Shown one piece after another: positions 18,768 through 28,613 of a stretch of DNA of 33,092 bases; the stretch's first letter is position 1; every line of letters starts with the position of its first letter. The translations under genes were made by a program, and so were the position numbers. This DNA is from Sphaerisporangium sp. GTDB taxonomy: Bacteria; Actinomycetota; Actinomycetes; Streptosporangiales; Streptosporangiaceae. The stretch covers positions 1 through 33,092 of the forward strand of contig JAOPYI010000186.1 of the NCBI GenBank assembly GCA_025964675.1. Reading direction: 5' to 3'. The notes beneath the pieces are model-generated. The model was given only the letters and a program-made list of their open reading frames with translations, was not told the origin of the DNA and ran no database searches.

Positions 18768-19667
18768 CTAGAACAGCCAGTCGAGCAGGCCGGCGCTCTT
18801 GGTCTTCGTCGGGCTCGGGGCGGGCGCCTGTGTGGTCGGCGCGGGCGGCGGGGGTGCCGGGGACGAGGTCGACGGCGTCGCGGTCGGGTTGTCCTCGATC
18901 CGCGGCTCGTCCGGCTGCTGCGGGGTGCTGCTGGACCTCGGCGACGGCTCGGGCGACCGGACGCGGGTGTGCGTCGGCGACGGCCGGGCCGAGGGCTGGT
19001 GGGTGACCCGCGCCTGGGAGGTCGGCGACGCGGAGGTGGGCGTCTCGCTGGGCGACGCCGTCGTCTCCTCGGGCGTGACGGTCGGCTGGGTGGACGGGTC
19101 AGCCGGGAGGCTGTCCGTCGGGGCGGGCTCCTGCTGCCCCACCGGGGAGCAGTCGGCGGGGGCCGAGCACGCCGCCTCCGACCTGGAGCCGACCGAGGAC
19201 GACACGATCCAGCCGCCCGCGACCGCGAGCACGACGATCGCGACCATGGCGAGGATGAGCCGCTTGTTCTGGCTGCCCTTCTCCTCCTCGAGGTCGTTCT
19301 CGCCGGTCCAGCCGGACCCGAGGAAGCCACGGGGTGGCTCGGCGTCGGGGTCGTGCTCCCCGTCGGGGACCCAGCCGCCGTCGTCCGGCCGCGCGTAACC
19401 CTCCGGCCGCTCGTAGTCCGCCGAGCCTTCGGGGCCCTCTGCGGGCGGCTGGTGATCGCCGTGGTCCTCGGGCCGATCTAACTCCGGCCGCTCGAACTCC
19501 GATGATTCGTCGCTCTGGGTGTGAGCGGGTTCGTGGCCGGGCGTCCATCCGTCGGACAGCACGTCGCCGCCCGGGCGCTCCGGCTCATTTGGCCACTCGA
19601 TGCCCAAAGGACCGGTCTGCTTCAGAGGATCCTCTTCATGGGATCTCGGGGTGCCGTCGCGGTCCAT
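18768..19667 (-). CDS. Single-pass membrane protein with disordered acidic N-terminus and Pro/Thr/Ser-rich outer domain
   Basis: 299 residues, no recognised family. Residues 1-135 are acidic, Pro/Glu/Asp-rich and probably disordered in the cytosol. A basic KR precedes the only membrane helix (about 137-157, LILAMVAIVVLAVAGGWIV). The outer part has two Cys (167 and 173) that could form a disulfide, then about 110 residues of Pro/Thr/Ser repeats resembling a wall-spanning stalk, ending in the hydrophobic GLLDWLF. GAGAGG is 6 nt before the ATG. Similar architecture is widespread in actinomycetes as proteins of unknown function. Low complexity makes homology calls risky, but GC3 bias and the ribosome site support a real gene. 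Confidence 0.75.
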   Translation of the reverse strand: MDRDGTPRSHEEDPLKQTGPLGIEWPNEPERPGGDVLSDGWTPGHEPAHTQSDESSEFERPELDRPEDHGDHQPPAEGPEGSADYERPEGYARPDDGGWVPDGEHDPDAEPPRGFLGSGWTGENDLEEEKGSQNKRLILAMVAIVVLAVAGGWIVSSSVGSRSEAACSAPADCSPVGQQEPAPTDSLPADPSTQPTVTPEETTASPSETPTSASPTSQARVTHQPSARPSPTHTRVRSPEPSPRSSSTPQQPDEPRIEDNPTATPSTSSPAPPPPAPTTQAPAPSPTKTKSAGLLDWLF

Positions 19668-19924: not shown

Positions 19925-19989
19925 GCCGCGCTCCGACGTACCTTGGTGATGAGTAGTCACTATGCGTATGGATGCGCAGGTGGCGGGCA

Positions 19990-20003
19990 GGGCCGAACGT
20001 CCC
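19990..20003. promoter_or_regulatory. GGGCC-N4-GTCCC dyad, DosR-box-like
   Basis: GGGCCGAACGTCCC, 82 bp before the ATG at 20086. It has the exact 14-bp geometry of the DosR core with one arm substitution, and agrees at 11 of 14 positions with a second site at 29264-29277 (GGGC-N3-ACGTCCC). Confidence 0.45.
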
Positions 20004-20064
20004 GCCGCGAGGCGTCGTAAGACTCTGTCGGGTCGCTCCGCCGTAACCCACTCTGGATGGAGAT

Positions 20065-20085: not shown

Positions 20086-20691
20086 ATGCGGTCCTTGGCC
20101 AGGTGGACGATGAGGTGTTTTCGCCGGTACCGGTTCGACCACAACCCGTTACGTCGGCGCTCTGACCGGATCGAGACCGTCGCCGTGCTCATCACCTTGC
20201 TGGTCCTGGTCGCCTGCCTGTGGCCGGCAGTCCTGGCCGGTCGCATCGTCTACCAGCGTGGTGTCATGGCGGAACGGGCAGAGCCTGGCCTGCGGCAGCC
20301 GGTCACCGCCGTGCTGCTGGAGGACGCCGCCAGCACGACCGCGGTGTCGTCCCAGGGCACCGTCCTCGGCATCAAGGCCAAGGCCCGCTGGTACACGCCC
20401 ACCGGCCGGATGCGGACCGAGGTCGTGTCCGTCCCCGCGCAGGCCAAGGCGGGTTCCACGCTGGAGCTGTGGGTCGACGGGTCAGGCCGTCCGACGACCG
20501 CGCCGCGCACGCACCCGCAGACGGTCGCCGACAGTGTCGTGGCCGGATTCGGCGTCATGGCCGGGGCCACGGGCGTGCTGTTCCTGAACCTCGCGGTCTT
20601 CCGCTGGATGCTGGACCGCCGCCGCTACGTGGACTGGGACAAGGCATGGACCTCCGCCCACGACCGGTGGCGGCGCCCCCGGCAGCCGTGA
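20086..20691 (+). CDS. Rv1733c-family membrane protein
   Basis: 201 residues with two membrane helices (about 32-54 and 150-172) flanking an extracytoplasmic domain of about 95 residues. The N-terminal RFDHNPLRRRSDRIE followed directly by the first helix, a RWYTPTGRMRTEVV strand and the LELWVDGSGRPTTAP segment are hallmarks of the Rv1733c family. In M. tuberculosis Rv1733c (about 210 residues) is a DosR-induced dormancy protein and T-cell antigen of unknown function. AGGGAGG is 6 nt upstream. A universal stress gene follows after 45 bp and a site-2 protease gene overlaps that one, so the three probably form one transcript. The family call is good; the function is unknown. Confidence 0.85.
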   Translation: MRSLARWTMRCFRRYRFDHNPLRRRSDRIETVAVLITLLVLVACLWPAVLAGRIVYQRGVMAERAEPGLRQPVTAVLLEDAASTTAVSSQGTVLGIKAKARWYTPTGRMRTEVVSVPAQAKAGSTLELWVDGSGRPTTAPRTHPQTVADSVVAGFGVMAGATGVLFLNLAVFRWMLDRRRYVDWDKAWTSAHDRWRRPRQP

Positions 20692-20736
20692 GCGGTGGCG
20701 GCCGAGCGTGATCGTGGCTGTGACGAGGAGGGAGCC

Positions 20737-21633
20737 ATGAACGGACACGTGGTCGTGGGTGCCGACGGTTCGCCCCCCGCGCTGGCCGCCGTGCGCTGGG
20801 CCGCCGACGACGCGGTACGCCGCGACCGGCGCCTGCGCATAGTCCATGTCACCGAGCCATGGGTGTTCGACCAGCCGTTCACCACACCTCCCGGGTTTCA
20901 GGAGTCCCTCTCGGAACACTCGCGGGCCGTCCTCGCCGAGGCCACCAGGACCGCCCATGAGCGGGTCCCCGGGCTACAGGTCGAGACGGCGGCGCTCACC
21001 GGCAACGTGCGCAAGGAGCTGTTGAAGGAGGCGCGCGACGCCGAGGAGCTGGTGGTCGGCACCCGGGGGCTGGGCGGTTTCATGGGGCTCGTGCTGGGTT
21101 CGATCTCGATGGGCGTCGCCGGGCACGCGGACTGCCCGGTGGTCGTGGCCACGCACACGGAGGAGACCGTCCACGGGGAGATCGCCGTCGGCCACGACGG
21201 GTCGCCGGAGTCGGAGGCCGCGTTGGAGTACGCCTTCGAGGAGGCCAACCTTCGGGGAGCCCGGTTGCGAGCCGTCTACGCGTGGCAGCTGACCGCCTTC
21301 CTCCCGCTGTTCGCCAGCTACACCCCAGACCTCGAGAGGGTGTACGACATGGGCAAGCGCGCGGCGCAGGAGCAGCTTCTGCCATGGCGAGACAAGTATC
21401 CGCAGGTCGACGTGTACGACTCGGTGGTGCGCGCGCACCCGGTCGAGGCCCTGTCGGAGGCGTCGTCGAAGGCGGACCTGCTCGTGGTGGGCTCACGAGG
21501 CAGGAGTGGCCTCGGCTCGGCCATGCTGGGCTCTGTCAGCCACGGCGTTCTCCATCACGCGTACAGCCCGGTCGCGGTCGTGCGGTCAGGGAACCAGTCC
21601 TCGGCGACCGGGAACGGGAGCCACGGCACATGA
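20737..21633 (+). CDS. Universal stress protein, tandem UspA domains
   Basis: 298 residues made of two UspA domains (about 1-138 and 147-290). Each begins with the nucleotide-binding aspartate strand (VVVGADGS, IAVGHDGS) and carries the ATP-binding G-x2-G-x9-G-S/T pattern (GTRGLGGFMGLVLGSIS and GSRGRSGLGSAMLGSVS), so both sites look competent. The size and layout match Rv2623 of M. tuberculosis, an ATP-binding dormancy and growth-arrest protein of the DosR regulon. GAGGAGGGA lies just before the ATG at 20737. The gene's TGA overlaps the ATG of the downstream protease by 4 bp, which implies coupled translation. Confidence 0.95.
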   Translation: MNGHVVVGADGSPPALAAVRWAADDAVRRDRRLRIVHVTEPWVFDQPFTTPPGFQESLSEHSRAVLAEATRTAHERVPGLQVETAALTGNVRKELLKEARDAEELVVGTRGLGGFMGLVLGSISMGVAGHADCPVVVATHTEETVHGEIAVGHDGSPESEAALEYAFEEANLRGARLRAVYAWQLTAFLPLFASYTPDLERVYDMGKRAAQEQLLPWRDKYPQVDVYDSVVRAHPVEALSEASSKADLLVVGSRGRSGLGSAMLGSVSHGVLHHAYSPVAVVRSGNQSSATGNGSHGT

Positions 21634-22808
21634 AGCAGAACCTCCGGCTCGGCCACGTGGCCGGCATCGCCGTGGGAGCACACTGGTCCACGGTGATGAT
21701 CGCCCTGCTGATCGGGGGAGTGCTGGCGAGCACGGTGCTGCCGCAGGCGGTCGCCGACCAGCCTCCGGCACGCTACTGGATCGTCGCCGCCGTGACGTCG
21801 ATCGTCTTCCTCGGCTCGCTCCTGGGCCACGAGATCGCTCACGCGATCGTCGCCCGCCGCCGAGGGGTGCCGGTCAAGTCCATAACGCTGTGGCTGCTCG
21901 GCGGGGTCACCGAGTTCGCCGGGGAGACGAAGACGCCGAAGGACGAGTTCCAGGTCTCGGTGGCGGGCCCGCTGGTGAGCCTCCTTTTGGCGGGCGTCTT
22001 CTACGCGGTGGCCGTGTTCCTTAAGGGGCCCGCCCTGGTGGTCGCGGCCGTGCGGTGGCTCGCTCTGATGAACGCCGTGCTGGCCGTCTTCAACATGCTC
22101 CCCGGTTCCCCTCTGGACGGAGGCCGGGTGCTGCACGCGGCCCTGTGGCACAGGCACGGCGACCGGGCACGCGCCGACCGGGCCACCGCCAAGGCCGGGC
22201 AGGCGCTCGGCATGGCACTGATCGTGGTCGGAGGCATGGAGCTCATCCTTCTAGCGTGGACCGGCGGGCTGTGGATGATGTTGATCGGCTGGTTCCTGAC
22301 CAGCGCCGCCCGTAGTGAGGGTCTGGTGCGGGCCGCGCACGAGGGGCTCAAAGGCTGGCGGGTACGGGATGTGATGACGACCTCGCCTGACCTGGCCCCC
22401 GCGTGGCAGGACATCGACGACTTCATATCCACCGTGGCGCTGCGCTCACGCCAGACCGTGTTTCCCGTCGTGGACTTCGCCGGTGAGCCGGCGGGGACGC
22501 TCTCCCTCGAAGCGCTGACGGCCATCCCTCCCGACCAGCGCCACGACAGGCGGATCTCGACGGTGGCGAAACGCCTGCCCCCCGACCGTCTCCTCTCTCC
22601 CGACGACGACGCCGCCAAGATCCTGGAGCGGCCCGCCTTCGGCGGCGAGCTGATGGCCGTGGTCGTGGACGCCGGGCACATCGTGGGCATGGTCACCACG
22701 GCCGACCTGACCCGAGCCCTCCAGCAGGCGGTCCTGCGCACGACCTCCACCAACCACGACAGCCAGCAGGACCACCCCGGCCGCCCCCTCCACGACTCCG
22801 GGAGCTGA
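21630..22808 (+). CDS. Site-2-type zinc metalloprotease with CBS pair (Rip3/Rv2625c-like)
   Basis: 392-residue M50 intramembrane protease. The zinc motif H67-E-I-A-H71 lies in a membrane helix, and the third ligand Asp163 is in NMLPGSPLDGGR. About six hydrophobic segments occupy residues 10-230 and a CBS pair follows (about 240-375). Length and order match M. tuberculosis Rv2625c/Rip3 (about 393 residues), a DosR-regulon member. Site-2 proteases cut membrane-bound anti-sigma factors or other type II membrane proteins; the CBS pair may make activity respond to adenine nucleotides. Its ATG overlaps the universal stress stop (ATGA). An adjacent substrate candidate would be the Rv1733c-like protein (speculation). 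Confidence 0.93.
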   Translation: MKQNLRLGHVAGIAVGAHWSTVMIALLIGGVLASTVLPQAVADQPPARYWIVAAVTSIVFLGSLLGHEIAHAIVARRRGVPVKSITLWLLGGVTEFAGETKTPKDEFQVSVAGPLVSLLLAGVFYAVAVFLKGPALVVAAVRWLALMNAVLAVFNMLPGSPLDGGRVLHAALWHRHGDRARADRATAKAGQALGMALIVVGGMELILLAWTGGLWMMLIGWFLTSAARSEGLVRAAHEGLKGWRVRDVMTTSPDLAPAWQDIDDFISTVALRSRQTVFPVVDFAGEPAGTLSLEALTAIPPDQRHDRRISTVAKRLPPDRLLSPDDDAAKILERPAFGGELMAVVVDAGHIVGMVTTADLTRALQQAVLRTTSTNHDSQQDHPGRPLHDSGS

Positions 22809-22838: not shown

Positions 22839-23450
22839 TCAGCACAGGCTGGCGAACCAGCGGCCGGCTTCGTTCCAGAAGCCGGTCTGGGCGAACCCGG
22901 CGCCACGGGCGAGATCGGGCAGATCGCTCGCGGAGACCGTCGCCCAGGCGAACCACTCCCCGGCCACCTCTCCCCGCCGGAGCCGCACCCACTCCACGCG
23001 GCTGGCCGTCTGCGGCGGACCGACCTCGGCGATCACAACGCCGCCCGGCCTCAGCAGCTCGCGTGCCCGCCGGAGAAGGGCGTCGGGATCACCGCCGATC
23101 CCGATGTTGCCGTCGGCGAGCAGCACCGTCCTCCACCGGCCGCTCCCCGGGACCTGGCCGAAGACGTCGCGGCAGAGGGCGAGGCCGCCGGCGTCGAGCG
23201 TGAGGTCTACGGCGTGCGGAGTGATGTCGATGCCGAGGGCGGCGATGCCACGCCTGGTCAGCTCGACGGTGAGCCGCCCGGGCCCCGATCCCACGTCCAG
23301 TACGGGAGCTACGCAGCGCGACAGCATCGCCTCGTCACCCCCCATCGGCCGGAGCCAGCGCGTGGAATCCAGGAGCCGGCACGTGCCGTCCGGGTGCTCG
23401 ATCTCCACGCTCTTCCCCGTCAGGGACTCGGCGTACAGCTCTCCGATCAA
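22839..23450 (-). CDS. Class I SAM-dependent methyltransferase
   Basis: 203 residues with the SAM-binding motif I VLDVGSGPGRLTVEL (50-64), an acidic motif II strand (ALGIDITPHAV) and the LLRPGGVVIAEVGPP motif IV-like strand. The acceptor is unknown. The start is TTG at 23450, supported by GGGAG 7 nt upstream and by a 4-bp overlap (TTGA) with the stop of the DUF2064 gene, so the two are translationally coupled. It is the last gene of a three-gene run with DUF2064 and GT2, a conserved actinobacterial grouping as far as I recall, which suggests modification of a sugar- or lipid-linked product at the membrane. Confidence 0.88.
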   Translation of the reverse strand: MIGELYAESLTGKSVEIEHPDGTCRLLDSTRWLRPMGGDEAMLSRCVAPVLDVGSGPGRLTVELTRRGIAALGIDITPHAVDLTLDAGGLALCRDVFGQVPGSGRWRTVLLADGNIGIGGDPDALLRRARELLRPGGVVIAEVGPPQTASRVEWVRLRRGEVAGEWFAWATVSASDLPDLARGAGFAQTGFWNEAGRWFASLC

Positions 23451-24136
23451 CGCAGGGCTCCCAGCGCCGCGAGGGCGGCGGCGAACCCGGATTCGGGAGC
23501 CTCCGCCGCGACCTCGATCGCATCCGCGACGGTGTCCACGTCCGTCAGGCAGGGCATCCGGGCGACGCTCAGCCCCGCGTCTTCAAGCCGTGCCAGCTGG
23601 GCTTCCCCGGTATGCGGCTCGGACATGGGCACCCCGAGCAGGAGGCCCGGGTCGGGAACGCGGAGCCCCAGCAGCCAGAATCCGCCGTCGGCCGCCGGTC
23701 CGAAGACGGCGTCGCACACGCCGAGCAGCGACAGGGCTGTGGAAAGCGTCTCGGCGCTGACCTGCGGGGTGTCCATGCCGATCAGCACGATCGGCGACGG
23801 CACGAGCCGGTAGGCGTCCTCGAAGGCCGCCGCGAGCCGCTCGTCCAGGCCCCGGCCGCGCTGCGGCAGCACCGTGAACACCTCTGGCACCCAGGGCCCT
23901 GGAGCCCCGTCCAGCGCCAGCACCCGGTGGACCGCCGGGACACGGGCAACCGTCCGCAGCGTGTCGTCGAGCGCCGCCGCGGCAAGCCGCGCGGCGTCCT
24001 CCGGAGTGAAGGGAGGGGTCAGCCTGGTCTTCACCTTGCCAGGCACGGGCTCCTTGGCGATCACCAGCACCTGACCCCGGCTCCGGCCCGTACGTGGCGC
24101 GACGCTCCAGGCCGGTCCGCGTAGGTGGCCGCTCAC
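23447..24136 (-). CDS. DUF2064/TIGR04282-type glycosyltransferase-fold protein
   Basis: 229 residues. VLVIAKEPVPGKVKTRLTPPF (about 19-39) is the nucleotide-sugar-binding start of the family, followed by VLPQRGRGLDERLAAAF, the VLIGMDTPQVSAETL strand and GPAADGGFWLLGLR. This group resembles nucleotidyl/glycosyltransferases of GT-A fold, and some relatives are annotated in arsenosugar biosynthesis. No arsenic genes are near, so that label should not be carried over. The start is GTG at 24136, which overlaps the GT2 stop by 4 bp (GTGA). A longer in-frame extension reaching 24454 lies inside the GT2 gene and is unlikely. Confidence 0.85.
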   Translation of the reverse strand: MSGHLRGPAWSVAPRTGRSRGQVLVIAKEPVPGKVKTRLTPPFTPEDAARLAAAALDDTLRTVARVPAVHRVLALDGAPGPWVPEVFTVLPQRGRGLDERLAAAFEDAYRLVPSPIVLIGMDTPQVSAETLSTALSLLGVCDAVFGPAADGGFWLLGLRVPDPGLLLGVPMSEPHTGEAQLARLEDAGLSVARMPCLTDVDTVADAIEVAAEAPESGFAAALAALGALR

Positions 24137-24798
24137 GCCCTGCCGCCTTGCTCGGCCATGACACGCCGCATGTCGCCGATCGCCCGCAGCGTCCCGCGTA
24201 CCGTGCCCGTCACCTTGGAACGGCCCGCACGCGGGAGGTAGTCGACGTCGACCTCGCCGAGGCGCCACCCCTCGGCGGAGGCGCGCAGCACCATCTCCAG
24301 CGGGTAACCGAACCGCCGGTCGGTCAGGCCCAGCGCGAGCAGGCCGTCGCGCCTGGCCGCCCGCATCGGCCCGAGGTCGTGCAGGGGAACGCCGGTCCTG
24401 CGGCGAAGTCTCCCGGCCAGTACGGCGTTGCCGAGGCGCGCGTGCGGCGGCCATGACGCGTCCGCGTGGAGCACGCGGCGGCCGAGGACCAGGTCCGCCT
24501 CTCCCGTGAGAACCGGCTCGGTCACGCGCGGAAGCTGGCGGGGGTCGAGCGAGGCGTCACAGTCCATGAAGCAGACGACCTCCGCCGTCGCGGCGACCAG
24601 CCCCGCATGGCAGGCCGCGCCGAAACCGCGCCTTGGCTCGCTCACCACCAACGCGCCCAGCTCGGCCGCCACCCGAGCGGAACGGTCGGTGGAACCGTTG
24701 TCGACCACGATCGGGCGAAAGCCGTCCGGCATGCGTCCGAGCACCCACGGCAGAGCCGGCTCCTCGTCCAAGCAGGGGAGCACCACGTCGATCTCCAT
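24133..24798 (-). CDS. Family 2 glycosyltransferase (polyprenyl-phosphate sugar transferase-like)
   Basis: 221-residue GT-A glycosyltransferase. The N-terminal strand reads VVLPCLDEEPALPWVL, the nucleotide-binding segment VVDNGSTDRSARVAAELGA, and the metal-binding DxD is Asp79-Cys-Asp81 in CFMDCDASLD. The later FGYPLEMVLRASAEGWRLGEVDVDYLPR segment resembles dolichol/polyprenyl-phosphate sugar synthases, so it probably loads a sugar onto a lipid carrier at the inner membrane face (inference). No C-terminal membrane helix is present. It is first in a coupled run with DUF2064 and the methyltransferase, divergent from the polytopic gene at 24891, which could use the lipid-linked sugar outside. 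Confidence 0.9.
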   Translation of the reverse strand: MEIDVVLPCLDEEPALPWVLGRMPDGFRPIVVDNGSTDRSARVAAELGALVVSEPRRGFGAACHAGLVAATAEVVCFMDCDASLDPRQLPRVTEPVLTGEADLVLGRRVLHADASWPPHARLGNAVLAGRLRRRTGVPLHDLGPMRAARRDGLLALGLTDRRFGYPLEMVLRASAEGWRLGEVDVDYLPRAGRSKVTGTVRGTLRAIGDMRRVMAEQGGRA

Positions 24799-24890
24799 GG
24801 CTCCGACCGTAGATCAGCAAGGGCCGATCAACTCTTACAGTGTGATGACATACCCATGGGGAATGCGCAGCTCAGGCCTAGGGTGAGAAG

Positions 24891-26201
24891 GTGATCGCCT
24901 CCCCGCCCCGGATCGCGCCGGGACCCCCCTCCACGTCCGCGTTCGCCGGCGGGCGGCGATTACGGCGGGCGGTCGCGGCGTGGGCCGGCTTGATCGTTCT
25001 CTCCTTCGCGGTGGGGGCGGTTCTTGATCGGCTCGGCGTGCTGCCCATCGATCACCTGCCGCCGCTGCACGCCCACTTCCGCGTGCTCACGGTCACGCTG
25101 CTACCCGCCGGGGCGTTCGCGGCCGCCGCTGTGACCGCCCTGCCCGGCCTCCTCATGCGGGTAGGTTTCGGCCGCGCGCTCCTGCTGGCGTACGGCTGCG
25201 CACTGGCCTGGACGGTGTTGCTGGCCGTGTCGGGTGACGGGCTCGCCGCCCCCCTCACCCACCGAACCGAGTACCTCGCGGTGCTCCCCGCCGTCGGCGA
25301 CGACCCCCTGGGCTGGCTGGCGTCCTTCACTGAGCGTCTCCCCGCCTATCCGACGCACGTCCGAGGGCATCCGCCTCTTCCCGTGCTGATCCTCTGGGGG
25401 CTCGCGCGGATCGGGTTGCCCGGGGCCTTCGCCGCGTCGGTGCTGGTCGTGGCCGTCGCCTGTTCCGCGACGGTGGCCATCGGGATCACCGTACGAACTC
25501 TCGCCGGGGAGGGCGCCGCGCGCCGCGCGCTGCCGTACCTCGCCCTCACTCCTTCGGCGGTCTGGATCGCCACCAGCATGGACGCGCTCTTCGCCGGGAT
25601 CGGGGCGTGGGGCGTGGCACTGCTCGTGCTGGCGGCAGGAGGGCGGCGGCAGCGGATCGGGTGCGCCGTGGCGGCGGGAGTGCTGCTCGGGTCCGTGCCC
25701 TACCTGAGCTACGGGCTGGCGCCCTACCTTCTGGTTCCGGTGGTGGCGGGGATGCTGGCACGCGTACCACGCGCGACCGTGCTGGCGGCGCTGGGCGGCG
25801 CGGTGGCGGTGTCGGCCGCTTTCGTCCTCGGAGGGTTCCTCTGGCCCGAAGGGGTGCTTGCCACGCACGCCGAGTGGGCGGCCGATCCGGGTGCGGCGCG
25901 TCCGTACCTGTACTTCGTGGTCGCCGACCTGGGAGTCCTCGCGCTGTTGACCGGTCCGGCCACAGCGGCCGGGCTGGTACGGCTCGACTCCCGGCCGATG
26001 AGGGCGCTGGTGGGCGCCGCCCTGGTCGCCGTGCTGGCGCTCGACCTCAGCGGCGTGACCCGTGGGGAGGTGGAGCGCATCTGGGTGCCCTACGCCCTGT
26101 GGATCGGCCTGGCCGCCGGCATGGCGCCTGGGCGGCGCTGGCTCGCCGCCCAGGCGATCACGGGACTGCTGCTCCAGTCGCTGGTGCTGTCCCCGTGGTG
26201 A
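24891..26201 (+). CDS. Polytopic membrane protein, GT-C glycosyltransferase-like
   Basis: 436 residues with about 11 hydrophobic segments. An outer loop containing FTERLPAYPTHVRGHPPLPVLILWGLARIG resembles the HPP-type loop seen in GT-C mannosyl/arabinosyltransferase-like actinobacterial proteins. An Asp-rich catalytic loop after helix 1 is not obvious, although DRLGVLPIDHLPPLHAHFRV occupies that place. The start is GTG at 24891 with GAGAAGG adjacent upstream. It is divergent from the GT2-DUF2064-methyltransferase run and convergent with the epimerase. If it is a GT-C enzyme it would use the polyprenyl-phosphate sugar made by that GT2, which remains an inference. Confidence 0.7.
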   Translation: MIASPPRIAPGPPSTSAFAGGRRLRRAVAAWAGLIVLSFAVGAVLDRLGVLPIDHLPPLHAHFRVLTVTLLPAGAFAAAAVTALPGLLMRVGFGRALLLAYGCALAWTVLLAVSGDGLAAPLTHRTEYLAVLPAVGDDPLGWLASFTERLPAYPTHVRGHPPLPVLILWGLARIGLPGAFAASVLVVAVACSATVAIGITVRTLAGEGAARRALPYLALTPSAVWIATSMDALFAGIGAWGVALLVLAAGGRRQRIGCAVAAGVLLGSVPYLSYGLAPYLLVPVVAGMLARVPRATVLAALGGAVAVSAAFVLGGFLWPEGVLATHAEWAADPGAARPYLYFVVADLGVLALLTGPATAAGLVRLDSRPMRALVGAALVAVLALDLSGVTRGEVERIWVPYALWIGLAAGMAPGRRWLAAQAITGLLLQSLVLSPW

Positions 26202-26286
26202 GCGGGCGGGGGAGCGTCGCCCGTTCAGCCGGCCGGGGACGTCGTGCGTCCAAGTGGGCGCTGAGTCAGCTCGGCGGCGTCGCGCG

Positions 26287-27291
26287 TCAGCCGAGTGGCG
26301 CGGTGGCGAACTCCTTCATGCCGTCGGCGAATCCGATCGCCGAGCGGAATCCCAGCTCGCGGGCCGCCCGATCTGGAGTGGCCACGATGTGCCGCACGTC
26401 GCCGAGGCGGTACTCACCGGTCACGACCGGTTCTGGGCCGTTCCGCTCGCGCGCGAGAGCCTGCGCCATCTCGCCGATCGTGTGCGGCCCGCCGCTCGCG
26501 ACGTTGTACGCGGTGAGCGTCCCGGGGGCCGTACGCGCCTCGGCGGCCACGACATTGGCCTGCGCGACGTCGCGCACGTGGACGAAGTCCCGCCGCTGCC
26601 GGCCGTCCTCGAACACCCGGGGTGCCCGTCCGGCCTCCAGGGCCGAGCGGAAGATCGCCGCGACCCCCGAGTAAGGCGTGTCCCTGGGCATCCTTGGGCC
26701 GTACACGTTGTGGTAGCGCAGGGCGACCGCCACCCCTCCGGTCTCCCGCGCCCAGTTGGCCGCCAGATGCTCCTGGGCGAGCTTGGTCGAGGCGTACGCG
26801 TTGCGCGGGTCCAGTGGCGCGTCCTCGCCGATCGTGGCGCAGGCCAGCTCCGAGCCGCATTGCGGGCAGCGAGGCTCGAACACGCCGGCGGCCAGATCCT
26901 CCTCGGCGCGAGGGCCCGGTCGCACCCGGCCGTGCACGCCGCAGTCGTAGGCGCCCTCGCCGTACACGACCATGGAGGAGGCGAGCACGAGGCGGGTCAC
27001 CCGGCTGCTCGCCATCGCCGCCAGCAGCACCGCGGTGCCGTACACGTTGACGGAGGCATAGCTCGGCAGGTCCGCGACGTCCACCCCGAGCCCGACCTTG
27101 GCCGCCTGATGCACCACCAGGTCCACGCCGCTGAGCGCGCTGTTCACCAGCGGGGGGTCGCGCACGTCGCCGGTGACGCCGTGTCGTGTCTCGCGGAGGT
27201 CGAGGCCCACCACCTCGTGCCCGGCGGCTCGAAGAGCTTCGACCACGTGACTTCCGATGAACCCGGCCGCGCCGGTGACCAGTGCTTTCAC
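26287..27291 (-). CDS. NAD-dependent sugar epimerase (extended SDR, dTDP-L-rhamnose 4-epimerase-like)
   Basis: 334-residue extended short-chain dehydrogenase. The NAD loop is GAAGFIGSH (7-15), the catalytic Tyr166-x3-Lys170 is in YASTK, and LRYHNVYGPRMPRDTPYSGV plus EDGRQRRDFVHVRDVA form the substrate side. Between residues 115 and 150 is an insertion with Cys117-x2-His120 and Cys142-x2-Cys145, a probable zinc knuckle. I recall this insertion from the dTDP-L-rhamnose 4-epimerase (WbiB/TleA) group, hence the call; UDP-glucose 4-epimerase activity is the alternative. GTG 27291 gives the standard MKALVTG start, while GTG 27309 adds six residues. It closes the sugar block together with GT2 and the GT-C-like gene. 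Confidence 0.85.
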   Translation of the reverse strand: MKALVTGAAGFIGSHVVEALRAAGHEVVGLDLRETRHGVTGDVRDPPLVNSALSGVDLVVHQAAKVGLGVDVADLPSYASVNVYGTAVLLAAMASSRVTRLVLASSMVVYGEGAYDCGVHGRVRPGPRAEEDLAAGVFEPRCPQCGSELACATIGEDAPLDPRNAYASTKLAQEHLAANWARETGGVAVALRYHNVYGPRMPRDTPYSGVAAIFRSALEAGRAPRVFEDGRQRRDFVHVRDVAQANVVAAEARTAPGTLTAYNVASGGPHTIGEMAQALARERNGPEPVVTGEYRLGDVRHIVATPDRAARELGFRSAIGFADGMKEFATAPLG

Positions 27292-27388
27292 CCTGCCGAG
27301 GCTAGTCACGGCGCGCCCGCCCCGCCCGGCACACCGGGTGGATGTCCGCAGGACGTAAGAACTCCGCTTAGGAGAAGGCTCCGACGGT

Positions 27389-28447
27389 TCAGCTCTCGCG
27401 GAACCGGAGCAGCAGCATCGCCGCGTCGTCGTGCAGCGGCGCGTCGACGTGGGCCACCAGGTCGAGCCGGAGCGCTTCGAGTGCCGCCTCGGGGTCGTCG
27501 TCCTTCAGCAGGAAGACGCGGTCCATGAGGGGGTAGAAACGGCCCGCGCGGTCACGGGCCTCGATCACCCCGTCGGTGTACAGCAGGATCTGGTCACCGG
27601 GCCCGAAGGCGACCTGGTGAGGGTTCGGGCCCTCCACCTCGAGGACGGCCAGGCCGAGCGGCGGTGCGGTATCCACGGGCTCGGCAAGCGTGATCTCGCC
27701 TTCGGCGTGCAGGATCAGCGGCGGCGGATGGCCGTAGTTCAGCAGGGTGAGCTTCCCGCCGGGGTCGGCGTCGACCAGGATGGCCGTGACGAACTCCTCG
27801 CCCGAGAGCCGCCGGTTGAGCGCCTTCTCGAGCCGGCCGCTGACACCGCGAAGGTCGGGCTCGTCGTGGGCCGCCTCGCGGAACGCGCCGAGGACCAGCG
27901 CCGCCGTCTCAACCGCTTCCAGCCCCTTGCCTTGCACGTCGCCGACGATGGCGCGTACCCCGCCTGGGCCGGTGACGACCTCGTACAGGTCGCCGCCGAT
28001 GCGCGCCTCGGCGTTGGCCGAGGTGTAGGACACGGCCGCACGAAGATGGCCCGCCCGTCGCGGGACCGGTCGGAGCAGCACCCGCTGCGCCACCTCGGCG
28101 ACCGAGCGCACGCTCGCCAGCTCGCGCTCGCTCCGCTGCCGCCCCACGGTGGCGAGGATGCTGGCCGCGGTGACCCCGACGATCGAGATCAGGCCCATGT
28201 TGCTCTGCCGGTCTCCGAGGACGTCGTTGTAGAGGGCAAGGACCAGCGACAGGACCAGCGCCACGATGCCGATCGTCACCGTGCGGCGCACGCCGCCCAC
28301 CAGGCTGGCGAACGCCGGGCCGACGGCCAGCAGGGAAAGGTAACCGAGATCGGGGCCCCTGAAGACGTCGACCGCCGTCACGACGGCCAGCGACGCGAAG
28401 GGCAGCGCTCCCATGAGCCGCTGTGTTGTGTGATTCACCTGGGTCAT
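27389..28447 (-). CDS. Membrane-bound PP2C-type serine/threonine phosphatase (SpoIIE domain)
   Basis: 352 residues. Three to four hydrophobic segments (about 10-105) are followed by a short coiled linker and a SpoIIE/PP2C phosphatase domain (about 130-350). The metal-binding aspartates lie in ARIGGDLYEVV, IVGDVQGKGLEA, LYTDGVIEARD and HDDAAML, so the enzyme looks active. Such RsbU-like phosphatases dephosphorylate anti-anti-sigma factors to release stress sigma factors, which fits the stress genes nearby, but no anti-sigma or STAS gene is adjacent. The ATG at 28447 (MTQVNHTTQ) with GGAG 5 nt upstream is preferred over a longer frame to 28561. Confidence 0.92.
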   Translation of the reverse strand: MTQVNHTTQRLMGALPFASLAVVTAVDVFRGPDLGYLSLLAVGPAFASLVGGVRRTVTIGIVALVLSLVLALYNDVLGDRQSNMGLISIVGVTAASILATVGRQRSERELASVRSVAEVAQRVLLRPVPRRAGHLRAAVSYTSANAEARIGGDLYEVVTGPGGVRAIVGDVQGKGLEAVETAALVLGAFREAAHDEPDLRGVSGRLEKALNRRLSGEEFVTAILVDADPGGKLTLLNYGHPPPLILHAEGEITLAEPVDTAPPLGLAVLEVEGPNPHQVAFGPGDQILLYTDGVIEARDRAGRFYPLMDRVFLLKDDDPEAALEALRLDLVAHVDAPLHDDAAMLLLRFRES

Positions 28448-28613
28448 AGGCGCTCCGGGGCCGTCAGGGTGGGCTGCGGATAAGCCGGCCGACGGCGCTC
28501 CTGAGCGATGCGTTGACCAGAAAGAACACCGATGACCATAAAAGGGGATGACTCCCACCATTCCCCGCCTACGCGAGCAAGCACTTGAACGACCTCACAG
28601 CACCAACGAACTG

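Follow-up and report, generated by a model that had tools for sequence, protein, structure and literature searches.

Rv1733c, Rv2623 and Rv2625c of Mycobacterium tuberculosis are listed as hypoxia-induced genes of its DosR/DevR regulon (PMC4082495, extract), and rv2625c serves as a nitric oxide (NO)-induced DosR transcript (PMC8131098). Rv2623 (TB31.7), a tandem universal stress protein (USP), was reported to regulate growth via Rv1747 with a phosphothreonine link, so that a tandem USP can work through a membrane partner (PMC5549992, extract). In Streptomyces coelicolor the DevR-like OsdR/OsdK system, a two-component system of the DosR type with USP and PPOX genes among its targets, uses a 16-bp palindrome with the consensus AGGGCCGATCGGCCCT; the USP gene SCO0200 has an OsdR site GGGGCCGACCGTCCCT at position -100, while the PPOX gene SCO0214 is a predicted target (PMC5069765, extract). 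CBS-bearing site-2 proteases are represented by MJ0392 and SpoIVFB, which combine HExxH and LDG motifs with a C-terminal CBS part, the role of which in SpoIVFB was called enigmatic (PMC11486902, extract). Here, a window of 33,092 nucleotides (the whole stretch of DNA analysed, spanning the whole contig C194 of the 7.77 Mb genome G000 of a Sphaerisporangium, a soil actinomycete) was found to contain members of all these protein families side by side: the segment 19989-22808 probably represents a single operon under the control of a DosR-type (OsdR/DevR) regulator, consisting of a regulatory box and the genes for an Rv1733c-family protein, a tandem USP and a CBS-bearing site-2 protease.

In M. 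tuberculosis, Rv1733c is far from the other two genes by locus tag, whereas all three families stand in one operon in Sphaerisporangium. The USP-protease pair as such is not new, since the adjoining locus tags Rv2624c and Rv2625c belong to what we take to be a USP and a Rip3-like protein, respectively. With the OsdR/OsdK regulon the locus has in common the type of the 16-bp palindrome and its distance (-97, compared to -100 in SCO0200), the USP and PPOX targets and the type of the two-component system; however, neither "Rv1733c" nor "CBS" occurs in the main text of the S. coelicolor paper and no Rv1733c-USP-protease operon stands in its Table 1 (PMC5069765, extract). No prior description of such an operon was found in a few targeted searches of open-access papers, and the locus is a rearranged piece of a known DosR stress regulon, in which the arrangement is new and the kind of system is not. 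Its features are the following:

19989 to 20004, plus strand: predicted OsdR/DevR (DosR)-type binding site AGGGCCGAACGTCCCG, 97 to 82 bp before the first start codon, matrix score 17.3

20021 to 20034, plus strand: inverted repeat GACTC-TGTC-GGGTC, conserved in part and lying after the box and ahead of the start codon, found in the alignment of upstream regions, broken in locus L119 and altered in L121

20086 to 20691, plus strand: Rv1733c-family protein, 201 aa, by profile NF050032 and hydropathy

20737 to 21633, plus strand: tandem universal stress protein, 298 aa, with two Pfam Usp stretches and a motif in each half, relative of TB31.7

21630 to 22808, plus strand: CBS-bearing site-2 protease (Rip3-like), 392 aa, with Peptidase_M50, CBS and the motifs HEIAH and NMLPGSPLDG

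The first two genes are separated by 45 bp (20692-20736), while the USP and protease genes share the 4 bp ATGA at 21630-21633, exactly as described in an earlier sequence-only reading of the same DNA. Relatives of the Rv1733c-family protein at 65-80% identity belonged to Sphaerisporangium species, and the gene was present in all ten congeneric genomes. Eight of these also encode a protease closely similar to that of the window (at least 63% identity), and all eight had the three genes in identical order and strand, with a first gap of 12-78 bp and the ATGA overlap in 9/9 loci (the eight congeners and the window), while in G321 and G451 (S. corydalis) only the protease gene was missing. Judged by sequence, the common strand, the short gaps (45 and -4 bp) and the coupling conserved in eight congeners argue for one operon. 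The single operon put forward in the sequence-only reading was thus supported by sequence, and the gene order, for which that reading had asked a search in other genomes, was kept in 8/10 congeners. The same recurrence ruled out a chance gene order.

The assignment of all three proteins to the proposed families was confirmed by profile matches. The Rv1733c-family protein scored 145.7 bits against the NCBIfam profile NF050032 (cut-off 80), which places it inside the family and excludes a misassignment. It has hydrophobic peaks at about residues 32-50 and 151-169, predicted to be two membrane helices flanking a putatively extracytoplasmic stretch; such a pair of helices around an extracytoplasmic part is typical of the family. 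A 19-row profile search gave no convincing solved relative (best E 0.1). In the second protein, Pfam Usp matched in two stretches (184.9 bits), and a G-2x-G-9x-G(S/T) motif was present in both halves (residues 108 and 252). This is the ATP-type motif of USPs, by which the protein may bind nucleotides. Its top solved relative was TB31.7 (2jax, 134.3 bits), likewise a tandem USP (PMC5549992, extract), and only 2jax and 3cis were recovered at E 1e-10 in a comparison with solved structures. The third protein matched Peptidase_M50 with 89.7 bits and CBS with 26.4 bits (cut-off 24); a single CBS stretch (residues 327-364) exceeded the cut-off, and a second, degenerate CBS domain can only be surmised. 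The zinc motifs HEIAH and NMLPGSPLDG (the LDG motif) start at residues 67 and 155, respectively, and the active-site motifs were retained in 45/45 Rip3 matches (duplicates included). Its solved relatives by sequence were MJ0392 (3b4r, 70.2 bits) and, more weakly, SpoIVFB (8vjl, 25.2 bits).

The upstream-region alignment of the congeners revealed one strongly conserved block, which corresponds to the 19989-20004 site of the window. This site matches the published OsdR/DevR consensus, and its score of 17.3, obtained with a matrix of the 25 distinct S. coelicolor OsdR sites among 26 printed (one duplicate dropped; PMC5069765, extract), was exceeded by only four of the 25 published sites. The second-best site in the window scored 9.9, and a score of 17.3 was reached in 0/40 simulated windows, on which ground an occurrence of the box by chance was rejected. 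When the congeners were examined with a matrix of 13 published OsdR sites at a threshold of 12, a site of at least this score was present in 9/10 of them at 96 to 103 bp before the start codon, compared to 2.0% of 200 random stretches.

A DosR/DevR-type regulator elsewhere in the genome, which the sequence-only reading had suggested to look for, was found together with a DosS-type sensor. A response regulator on contig C163 (L149:9549-10187) matched the DevR structure 3c3w with 270.7 bits (166.1 bits for the next solved regulator) and itself has a box 35 bp upstream. In the adjoining kinase the first GAF domain matched DevS structures (172.1 bits to 2y8h), and a tandem USP gene precedes this DosS-type kinase gene. 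DosR homologues (E 1e-75 or better) were common throughout the family (227/250 genomes). A second DosS/DosR-type kinase-regulator pair, with a regulator 85% identical to the first, was located on contig C219 (L150).

A strict motif, RRGGHCSAASGTCCC, was built on the boxes found before the congeners' copies of this operon, before dosR and in Streptosporangium relatives. It occurred three times in the own genome (once in the reversed control): at dosR, at this operon and, on contig C236, before a PPOX gene. The last hit is independent, as it was not among the sequences used to draw the motif; at this site (L211:1501-1954) the PPOX gene is convergent with a gene of the WS/DGAT (wax ester synthase) type. 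Eleven genomes of the genus contained 33 strict-motif sites, compared to 8 for the control, and 24 of the 33 were located at DosR-type genes: 10 at this operon, 5 at dosR, 5 at PPOX, 2 at USP genes and one each at a P-type ATPase and a two-CBS protein gene. A cation ATPase gene, ctpF, is also on the M. tuberculosis hypoxia list (PMC4082495, extract). The operon site was within the strict motif in 10/11 genomes, with the box of G321 falling outside.

In other actinobacteria the same families were found in different combinations. Rv1733c-family genes were present in 64/296 genomes of the class, and their occurrence outside mycobacteria is by itself unsurprising, because USP genes already belong to the OsdR/DevR regulon published for S. 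coelicolor (PMC5069765, extract). In several relatives the families sit in dosR islands (the locus tallies for these islands include some places twice, and no rates were derived). Streptosporangium sandarakinum and S. pseudovulgare have PPOX and dosR followed divergently by Rv1733c and Rip3; in G346 the order is dosS, PPOX, dosR, Rv1733c, Rip3; and in S. violaceochromogenes Rv1733c, USP and Rip3 follow one another with gaps of 524 and 625 bp. In four relatives (L037, L040, L126 and L164) Rv1733c immediately precedes dosS in the same orientation, less than 80 bp from the matched part of dosS. The neighbours recurring around Rv1733c in 71 loci were genes for USP, zinc alcohol dehydrogenase, CBS-BON, nitroreductase, PPOX, dosR, dosS and Rip3. 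Close Rip3 homologues (at least 195 bits) occurred in 109 genomes, from which 27 loci beyond the genus were inspected. Six of these loci had a same-strand USP gene within 300 bp of Rip3 (five downstream, one upstream), with one more in convergent orientation. A Rip3 homologue (40-43% identical to the Sphaerisporangium protease) was present in 3/12 genomes of family f4, presumably mycobacterial, and at one of these loci (L215) a USP-type gene begins 24 bp after Rip3. None of 60 Rv1733c loci taken class-wide had a Rip3 match in the flanking DNA retrieved with them, which extended to about 8 kb at most. The loci of family f18, presumably Streptomyces-like (L064-L091), mostly had a different conserved neighbourhood with beta-helix/AAA, MOSC, TerD and DUF6643 genes and a box in 1/28.

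Control of the operon by a DosR-type regulator is well supported by the sequence data, because the conserved box, the DosR and DosS homologues, the strict motif and the dosR islands of relatives all point to it, in agreement with the sequence-only reading. Several observations weigh against it. A loose consensus (RGGGMCSNNSGKCCCB) was not enriched: the own genome gave 21 hits in the forward and 21 in the reverse direction, compared to 42 and 46 for the reversed control, and the strict-motif hits are partly circular, because the motif was drawn in part from the operon, dosR and Streptosporangium boxes. Nine of the 33 strict-motif sites (one of the nine not fetched) were at no recognised DosR-type gene. 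The box was weak in one congener (L119, score 7.6 at the same place), and a search next to the remaining USP genes of this genome found no adjacent box; a site of 13.9 at L182 was located about 1.4 kb before the USP match. Beyond the genus, a box of at least 12 was rare at Rv1733c loci: 1/28 in f18, 5/24 in other genera of the own family and 1/15 in f4, the last being a weak test because the matrix was built from Streptomyces sites. Rv1733c loci of three further families gave 0/3. Finally, a gene at 18768-19667 and a SpoIIE-type phosphatase gene at 27389-28561 flank the operon in all ten congener loci, and since synteny within the genus extends over the entire locus, the kept gene order is partly plain vertical inheritance.

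Assuming that the known properties of these families apply here, low oxygen or NO would be sensed by the haem-GAF kinase DosS encoded on contig C163, and the phosphorylated DosR would bind the 19989-20004 box and turn on a single transcript, in which the ATGA overlap would couple the translation of the USP and the protease. Modules of a nucleotide-binding kind are present in the USP and, as its CBS part, in the protease; they may make the protease responsive to the energy state. The Rv1733c-family protein would, speculatively, act in the membrane. Equally speculatively, the products might serve membrane and energy maintenance during arrest.

What the three products do, and whether they act jointly, is a matter of speculation. 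It is quite possible, although we stop short of calling it probable, that they are unrelated DosR effectors which share a promoter by happenstance and do not interact. Such co-regulation alone would agree with the shuffling of the families in relatives (Rip3-USP, USP-Rip3, dosR divergent from Rv1733c followed by Rip3, and Rv1733c-dosS) and with the locus-wide synteny, which accounts for part of the kept order. Against it speak the ATGA overlap kept in 9/9 loci and the USP-protease pair recurring in both orders (in 6/27 Rip3 loci outside the genus and at L215 of f4); this recurrence is the strongest pointer to a joint function.

We consider it unlikely that the operon encodes a dedicated proteolysis module, in which the Rv1733c-family protein would be the intramembrane substrate of the site-2 protease, itself regulated by the USP. 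The genes are neighbours in one operon, the active-site motifs are present and kept in all Rip3 matches, and in two Streptosporangium genomes no more than 500 bp separate Rip3 from Rv1733c, with both genes on one strand. In addition, both genes co-occurred in the family: among 250 genomes, 92 had both an Rv1733c match and a close Rip3 homologue, 17 only Rip3, 72 only Rv1733c and 69 neither (odds ratio 5.2, p 2.5e-8, uncorrected for kinship). Such a co-occurrence agrees with both genes belonging to a common regulon, and it does not demonstrate that one product is the substrate of the other. An obligate Rv1733c-protease pair is disfavored because in G321 and G451 the Rv1733c and USP genes occur without a protease gene, and the absence of Rip3 from the retrieved flanks of the 60 class-wide Rv1733c loci speaks against the module as well. 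A more elaborate version is similarly doubtful: a DosR-induced device for regulated proteolysis, in which the protease, tuned by the USP and the nucleotide level, processes the Rv1733c protein or is held by it. The Rv1733c protein would then also belong to the oxygen-sensing circuit, which is proposed because its gene is directly upstream of dosS in four relatives. Of the sequence-only reading, therefore, the families, the operon and, as a prediction, the DosR-type control stand, while its suggestion that the products work together, with the protease acting on the Rv1733c-like protein, was not upheld in view of the two congeners without the protease and the 72 versus 17 one-sided genomes.

We regard it as most improbable that the 16-bp site arose by chance as a GC-rich palindrome, with the operon under some other control: the unenriched loose consensus would fit, but the simulated windows, the constant position and sequence of the site in congeners and the independent hit at the PPOX-WS/DGAT locus, with the PPOX gene SCO0214 as a predicted OsdR target (PMC5069765, extract), all speak against it.

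The region between the protease and SpoIIE genes was variable among the congeners. In the window it contains methyltransferase, DUF2064, glycosyltransferase and epimerase genes (22839-27309), a set which was matched together only in the congener loci L112 and L114, with a match to the DUF2064 region also in L116.

Regarded as a single DosR-type controlled operon, the locus bears on two components of the dormancy response: to our knowledge, neither Rv1733c nor the Rip3-like protease, both encoded in the DosR regulon, has a firmly established role. With both of them and one USP placed behind one promoter, the Sphaerisporangium operon would offer, in a harmless relative, a small and testable unit for probing their roles and a possible interaction, while the box and the gene neighbourhoods extend the predicted OsdR/DevR regulon to the Streptosporangiaceae.

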